A DNA stretch of 64,000 nt from Thermoplasmata archaeon (GTDB lineage Archaea > Thermoplasmatota > Thermoplasmata > Lutacidiplasmatales > UBA184). This document shows, piece after piece, positions 54,631 through 64,000 of this stretch. A program made the translations under genes and the position numbers. Under the pieces are notes generated by a model. The model did not search any database. It saw only the letters and a program-made list of their open reading frames with translations, and was not told the origin of the DNA. Within the stretch, counting starts at the first letter, position 1, and each line of letters starts with the position of its first letter. The stretch covers positions 157,683-221,682 of the forward strand of contig JAKASE010000001.1 of assembly GCA_021819135.1 (NCBI GenBank). The letters run 5' to 3'.

Positions 54631-54969
54631 GAGGAGGGCCGTGGTCCCGAGGGGGATCGCTACATAGAGGGCCGCGGCCCGGCCGCGGCCGGGGAGCGGC
54701 GCGCGAGCGCCGGAGGACCGCCGGAGCCCCCGCGAAGAGGTCCGACCCGATTGTGCGTGCGCCGTCGCGTCCTCGGAACCATAGCCTGGGCGGACCGTAC
54801 CTCGCCTCCCCCATGCGGAACCCGGAGCATGGACCGATGCGCCACTCTCCGCGTCTATTTGTCGCTATGGTCGGAACCCGGGACCACCCCGGGCCAGGGA
54901 GGAAAGCAGAGGGCCAGCCGGCCGTCCGTGCGGCAACTTTTATCAACGGTCCGACGCTGGGATTGGCGT

Positions 54970-55076
54970 AGCCCCGTGGTGTAGTGGCCAATCATGCGAG
55001 ACTCTGGATCTCGCGACGCAGGTTCGAACGCCGCGGGGGAGGCGAACCCCGACGACCGAGACTCCTGCCGGGGCTA
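54970..55076 (+). tRNA. tRNA-Gln(CTG) with noncanonical intron at 55029-55062
   Basis: Acceptor AGCCCCG/CGGGGCT, anticodon loop CTCTGGA, T-stem GCAGG/CCTGC; removing 34 nt gives T-loop TTCGAAT. Confidence 0.9.
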
Positions 55077-55280
55077 CTCCGATCGCGTGAACGAGGTCAC
55101 TGTGCGGGGGTGCTCCAGCTCGGCCAAACCGTCCTTCGCGGACGGGGCTCGCGAGGCAGGGCTTAGGACCCTGTTGCCTAGGGCATGCGCCGGTTCAAAA
55201 CACCGGGCGGCGAACGTCGCCGCCGGTCGGAAACTCCGGCCCCCCGCATTCCGCCCCGCGACGGGGCGAGGTCGCCTCCG

Positions 55281-63917: not shown

Positions 63918-64000
63918 GCCGGGGTGGCCGAGCGGCCAAAGGCGGCAGACTCAAGATCTGCTCTCGCAGGAGTTCCCAGGTTCGAATCCTGGCCCCGGCA
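63918..64000 (+). tRNA. tRNA-Leu(CAA)
   Basis: GCCGGGG...CCCCGGCA acceptor, anticodon loop CTCAAGA, long variable arm, T-arm CCAGGTTCGAATCCTGG. Confidence 0.95.

Follow-up and report, generated by a model that had tools for sequence, protein, structure and literature searches.

Introns at position 59/60 of tRNA have been described before, and Crenarchaeota and Nanoarchaeota are the groups with the most noncanonical introns (PMC4090602); the noncanonical positions of Crenarchaeota and their Thermoproteales include 59/60, according to what PMC4090602 and PMC4033280 relate of Sugahara 2008 and Fujishima 2010. Surveys link such introns to splicing endonucleases (EndA) of the (alpha-beta)2 and epsilon2 types, which carry a specificity loop (PMC6379350, PMC12397907), and Euryarchaeota with alpha4 or alpha2 EndA are described as having a single, canonically placed intron per tRNA (PMC4090602). 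A 2014 review names Korarchaeum as the sole alpha2 archaeon with noncanonical introns, and places no Thermoplasmata among the multi-intron archaea (PMC4033280). Open-access full texts yielded no account of such introns in the T-loop for Thermoplasmata, although some of those described here may already be listed elsewhere, for example in tRNAscan-SE 2.0 tables.

The thermoplasmatal genome described here resembles Thermoproteales and other Crenarchaeota in having short bulge-helix-bulge (BHB) introns off the anticodon loop, in many isotypes and several per tRNA. It differs from them in its enzyme, an alpha2 EndA without a loop where Crenarchaeota have an (alpha-beta)2 EndA with the crenarchaeal loop, and in the layout of its introns: Crenarchaeota insert introns at diverse points and share similar ones among tRNAs, whereas here 59/60 dominates and no near-copies were found between isotypes. 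Korarchaeum cryptofilum likewise combines an alpha2 EndA with noncanonical introns (PMC4033280), but its EndA carries a specificity loop and the one here does not. The 37/38 introns of Euryarchaeota with alpha2 EndA share the BHB motif and the homodimeric enzyme, yet sit in the anticodon loop rather than at T-loop 59/60. Very many tRNA introns, often at noncanonical positions, are also known from metagenome-assembled genomes (MAGs) of Atabeyarchaeia and Freyarchaeia; these are Asgard archaea, and the available sections of the source describe neither a T-loop-specific design nor an EndA type (PMC11291895). The kind of intron is known; what sets this case apart is the lineage, the number and the enzyme.

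The tRNA-Gln(CUG) gene and its T-loop intron

The window, the whole 64,000-nt stretch of DNA that was analysed (G000:C35:157683-221682), comes from a 2.20-Mb assembly that is 91% complete. In it an earlier note had placed a tRNA-Gln(CUG) gene split by a 34-nt intron at 59/60, and sequence and coordinates are as it claimed:

54938..54943, + strand: putative TATA-like TTTTAT, about 30 nt 5' of tRNA-Gln(CUG), read from the sequence
54970-55076, + strand: tRNA-Gln(CUG) gene with interrupted T-loop; 107-nt precursor, 73 nt once spliced
54970..55028, + strand: exon 1, positions 1-59 (acceptor, D-arm, anticodon arm, 5' T-stem, T-loop TTCGAA), from ARAGORN on the spliced form
55018..55022, + strand: 5' T-stem GCAGG, the BHB outer helix; partner 55064-55068, paired in 30/30 distinct orthologues
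55023..55026, + strand: TTCG, 5' strand of the 4-bp central helix; partner 55057-55060, in 30/30 distinct orthologues
55027..55029, + strand: 5' bulge AA/C, predicted cut after 55028, at a conservation boundary
55029..55062, + strand: T-loop intron (59/60), 34 nt, CGCCGCGGGGGAGGCGAACCCCGACGACCGAGAC; low identity between invariant exons, 54.5-bit match to R1, a covariance model of the T-loop-intron arm
55057..55060, + strand: CGAG, 3' strand of the central helix, from pairing across orthologues
55061..55063, + strand: 3' bulge AC/T, predicted cut after 55062, at a conservation boundary
55063..55076, + strand: exon 2 (T60, 3' T-stem CCTGC, acceptor CGGGGCT, A73), pairing with exon 1

Removal of 55029-55062 leaves 73 nt in which ARAGORN recognises an entire tRNA-Gln(CUG), paired 7/7 in the acceptor and 5/5 in the T-stem. 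Unspliced, the gene draws from ARAGORN a distorted call, with a poor T-arm and acceptor forced upon it, and from the Rfam tRNA model no report at its cut-off. The 12-nt exon-2 match CCTGCCGGGGCT occurs once in the window, with 0.03 occurrences expected by chance.

Comparison of orthologues supports the boundaries. R2, a covariance model of the Gln precursor, was searched in 71 family genomes of at least 80% completeness and found full-length matches of at least 99 bits in 61 (counted by score, with the anticodon checked in 32 aligned copies). Among 27 distinct orthologues of equal length, mean pairwise identity is 99.3% in exon 1 and 100% in exon 2, but falls to 57% (0.573) over the intron and 41% over the intron's loop; the step from invariant to variable falls exactly at 55028/55029 and the return step exactly at 55062/55063. 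Since these steps coincide with the predicted cuts, the boundaries of the intron should lie where the earlier note drew them. The proposed structure forms 96.6% of its pairs in 30 distinct orthologues (shuffles, 92.7%), with seven pairs changed on both sides, and sliding the register by 1-3 columns leaves at most 53% paired every time. The helix of TTCG with CGAG and the 3-nt bulges AAC and ACT, also claimed before, are there, and each of the 30 distinct orthologues forms the full set of four central pairs, with U-A/U-G alternation; five of the six inner pairs vary on both sides and 83% of inner-helix cells are paired.

One detail needs correction. The CGGGG/CCCCG hairpin of the intron exists, but it does not stack directly on the bulge as had been proposed: GCCG/ACGAC intervenes, with a C.A mismatch and a bulged A, and thermodynamic folding of the single sequence favours a 2x2 internal loop at this place. 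This copy thus has an untidier inner helix than most homologues. As far as sequence can reveal, the intron is real in every respect: a 34-nt BHB intron at T-loop 59/60, boundaries included, is strongly supported, and its splicing is predicted.

Noncanonical introns in the genome, the family and the class

The earlier note had treated a single such intron in this lineage as the noteworthy event, which understates the case. R1 finds at least 12 T-loop introns in this genome alone, in Gln(CUG), Leu(UAG), Gly(UCC), Glu(CUC), Arg(UCU), Arg(UCG), Ser(GCU), Ser(GGA), Ala(GGC), Lys(UUU) and Asp(GUC), and in His(GUG) at only 32 bits. Isotypes were checked by in silico splicing and ARAGORN, which for Leu(UAG) and Lys(UUU) required removal of a D-arm intron as well; at C44:5168 a reading as Pro(CGG) was rejected, the spliced form being Arg(UCG). 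Eleven precursors of the genome align as T-stem, TTCR, AA/N, hairpin, 4-nt TTCR partner, NN/T and T-stem, with 90.9% of cells paired against 65.4% in shuffles and 36-61% in slid registers, and with both-side changes in all six inner pairs.

The nearest example starts 27 nt downstream of tRNA-Gln(CUG) and carries two noncanonical introns:

55104..55248, + strand: tRNA-Leu(UAG) precursor; ARAGORN accepts the doubly spliced form only
55128..55151, + strand: D-loop intron of tRNA-Leu(UAG), 24 nt, read from the sequence, splice checked in silico
55200..55234, + strand: T-loop (59/60) intron of tRNA-Leu(UAG), 35 nt; R1 match of 55.7 bits, splice checked in silico

Unspliced, this gene escapes ARAGORN, and at the cut-off of the Rfam model it escapes Rfam as well. 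Its D-loop intron has a central helix GGCC/GGCT with bulges AAA and CGC, an inner helix CCGTCC/GGACGG and an outer helix CTC/GAG. Another leucine tRNA of the window, tRNA-Leu(CAA) at 63918-64000, ends exactly at the contig end. Further D-arm introns were recognised by eye and by in silico splicing at three loci of the genome:

G000:C16:7900-8260 (L029): initiator Met
G000:C46:4080-4420 (L030): Arg(GCG)
G000:C13:84280-84640 (L033): Lys(UUU)

In the initiator Met and Lys genes the 3' bulge is bordered on its outer side by a weak helix or by none, which gives the BHB a relaxed look. Canonical 37/38 introns are present in the genome too, for example in Tyr and Leu(UAA). About a dozen tRNAs of this genome are missed or misread by the tools used, and tRNA-based estimates of completeness and claims of 'missing tRNAs' therefore call for care in Thermoplasmata; no tRNA for Trp, Pro, Asn or Arg(CCG) was recovered from this assembly, where introns outside R1's model may hide them.

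Judged by its EndA relatives, the host family belongs to Thermoplasmata, Ca. Lutacidiplasmatales. Those relatives lie, in named records, in Thermoplasmata MAGs that include UBA184 and AcS/SubAcS genomes, and Sheridan et al. assigned UBA184 and 35 acidic-soil genomes to Ca. Lutacidiplasmatales (PMC9287336). Archaeal SSU rRNA gave no match at threshold in the assembly. Every sampled member of the family (103/103 genomes) has 5-15 R1 matches, genomes from two further families of the order hold 0-2 at E <=0.001, with as many as 3 weaker matches, and outside the order 85 of 276 genomes of the class have 1-3, all of these counts being lower bounds because few candidates were scored per genome. Of the matches examined from outside the order, most yield a recognisable tRNA once spliced, Lys(UUU), Arg(UCU), Arg(CCG) and Leu(UAA) in particular. 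In several other Thermoplasmata families Lys(UUU) has insertions in both the T-arm and the D-arm, and in some a third in the anticodon loop:

L244, L247, L253, L258, L260, L261, L262, L165, L166, L167: Lys(UUU) loci with multiple insertions

This tRNA is probably an old multi-intron tRNA of the class.

The strictness of the motif varies with position 57. In the T-loop introns collected, G57 stands opposite C in 58/58, and A57 has G as its partner 78 times, U 15 times and something else twice. Among 116 family introns the T-stem is complete (5/5) in all and the inner helix has at least five of its six pairs in 103 (shuffled interiors, 5.7%), and the fourth central pair is A57.G in 71, Gln(CUG) not being one of them; in those 71 the central helix comes down to 3 bp plus A57.G, and the motif is thus not always strictly canonical. 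Glu(CUC) has a sibling intron of this A57.G type. Pair counts on R1 matches lean towards structure, as R1 searches favour sequences that fit the model.

Splicing endonuclease, mechanism and alternatives

From the T-arm position the earlier note had deduced a splicing endonuclease of broad specificity and had asked that EndA be classified. The classification gives a different enzyme. EndA is encoded at one locus (C24) as a 354-aa chain with two PF01974 repeats, and a search of the 91%-complete assembly up to E = 1 gave no second PF01974 locus; neither a beta subunit on its own nor a chain of three units was found. The catalytic Tyr, His and Lys lie in the C-terminal repeat (Y292, H300 and K331 in the numbering of a close relative, L039) and are invariant in 33 relatives, none of which has a loop insertion of the CSL/ASL kind, whose hallmark is a conserved Lys close to the active site. 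The specificity-loop site of the catalytic domain spans 6 residues, a length shared with A. fulgidus, M. jannaschii and M. kandleri, where A. pernix has 16. The predicted structure of L039 (pLDDT 91.7) is closest to the fused enzyme of M. kandleri and the alpha2 enzyme of A. fulgidus, matching 1r11 and 2gjw, and the epsilon2 enzyme fits much worse. The genome's EndA is thus an ordinary alpha2 (alpha prime 2) enzyme without a specificity loop, and many named Thermoplasmata genomes encode full-length alpha2 relatives. The idea of a broad-specificity EndA was rejected on the layout of the chain and the length of the loop; an epsilon2-type enzyme had been suggested by a 421-aa open frame, of which the alignable protein is the 354-aa alpha2 chain. 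RtcB, the ligase, is present in the genome.

We consider it about 90% probable that the 34 nt are a protein-spliced BHB intron at 59/60, cut by the alpha2 EndA and joined by RtcB. The tRNA itself would supply half of the splice motif, with the T-stem as outer helix, TTCG (54-57) as a strand of the central helix, and A58-A59 together with the intron's first base as 5' bulge; the intron would supply the other half, namely the inner hairpin, the CGAG opposite TTCG and the AC/T that serves as 3' bulge. A homodimeric EndA would then cut at AA/C and AC/T, and RtcB would restore TTCGAAT, giving mature tRNA-Gln(CUG) the predicted junction TTCGAATCCTGC. As nearly every tRNA has a T-stem and TTCRAA, one design of intron could fit many isotypes, a presumed route of spread that would explain why introns of one kind recur in at least 12 tRNAs of this genome and across the family. 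Cleavage and ligation in vivo, and this route, we infer from the pieces in place. The Ferroplasma alpha2 EndA, from the same class, cleaves minimal BHB substrates (PMC8707768), and a near-strict T-loop BHB such as this one should accordingly need no special enzyme.

It could be objected that the tRNA has no intron and finishes around 55043, built with a different T-arm and acceptor, since ARAGORN calls an uninterrupted tRNA-Gln at 54969-55043. That call was rejected on orthologue conservation: its T-arm and acceptor are mismatched, and the bases it requires are among the fastest to change in orthologues, in which CCTGCCGGGGCTA is invariant, so that this structure is hardly credible. A dead gene, broken by an insertion and never spliced, is scarcely more probable. 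Single-sequence folding is unexceptional (z = -1.5), which speaks for it, but the exons are 99-100% identical over six genera and the intron drifts yet keeps its pairs. Moreover, an intact second tRNA-Gln(CUG), which the earlier note had named as evidence against an intron, was not found in the 91%-complete assembly; Gln(UUG) is a separate gene there and intronless.

The more serious challenge concerns the enzyme. Splicing of the Gln(CUG) intron might depend on an extra endonuclease or accessory factor of broad specificity, rather than on alpha2 EndA alone, that is absent from the 91%-complete assembly. The surveys cited above tie noncanonical introns to loop-bearing enzymes, and the A57.G mismatch of many sibling introns points to a degree of relaxation in recognition. 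Against such a factor stand the single PF01974 locus, the full-length alpha2 relatives across named Thermoplasmata genomes, 33 of them without the loop insertion, and the competence of the Ferroplasma enzyme on minimal substrates, and we regard it as unlikely. Splicing by the alpha2 EndA, followed by joining through RtcB, is the reading that we prefer.

Gain, loss and wider meaning

The T-loop intron of Gln(CUG) is present in six of the seven genera. In genus g4 the gene is intronless (L301, L303, L304), and its last 23 nt are those of that genus's intronless Gln(UUG) (L301 compared with L302); the shared end suggests that the intron was lost in g4 through gene conversion from Gln(UUG). No pair of introns within the genome exceeds an alignment score of 0.6, and mean scores are 0.41 for introns of the same genome, 0.43 for the same isotype and 0.34 for neither. 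Copy-and-paste spread of one intron is not supported in this genome, where the lack of near-copies gives no sign of recent transposition.

More broadly, we lean towards the view that a whole class with loop-less alpha2 EndA bears T-loop introns, with a burst in one family, TTCRAA serving as half of the BHB and A57.G often tolerated. If that is true, the rule that calls for a loop-bearing endonuclease would concern the strictness of the motif and not its location within the tRNA; and if EndA does cut A57.G introns, this mismatch is tolerated without a specificity loop. The genomes of the family form a large, conserved exception to the rule given in reviews, and a natural check on the model in which tRNA introns and EndA specificity co-evolve. 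Sister genera with and without the Gln intron make its gain and loss testable, and in a sister family Gln(CUG) (L305, G001:C24:62350-62600) has an insertion in the anticodon loop together with a 14-nt T-loop insertion that shows no clear BHB.
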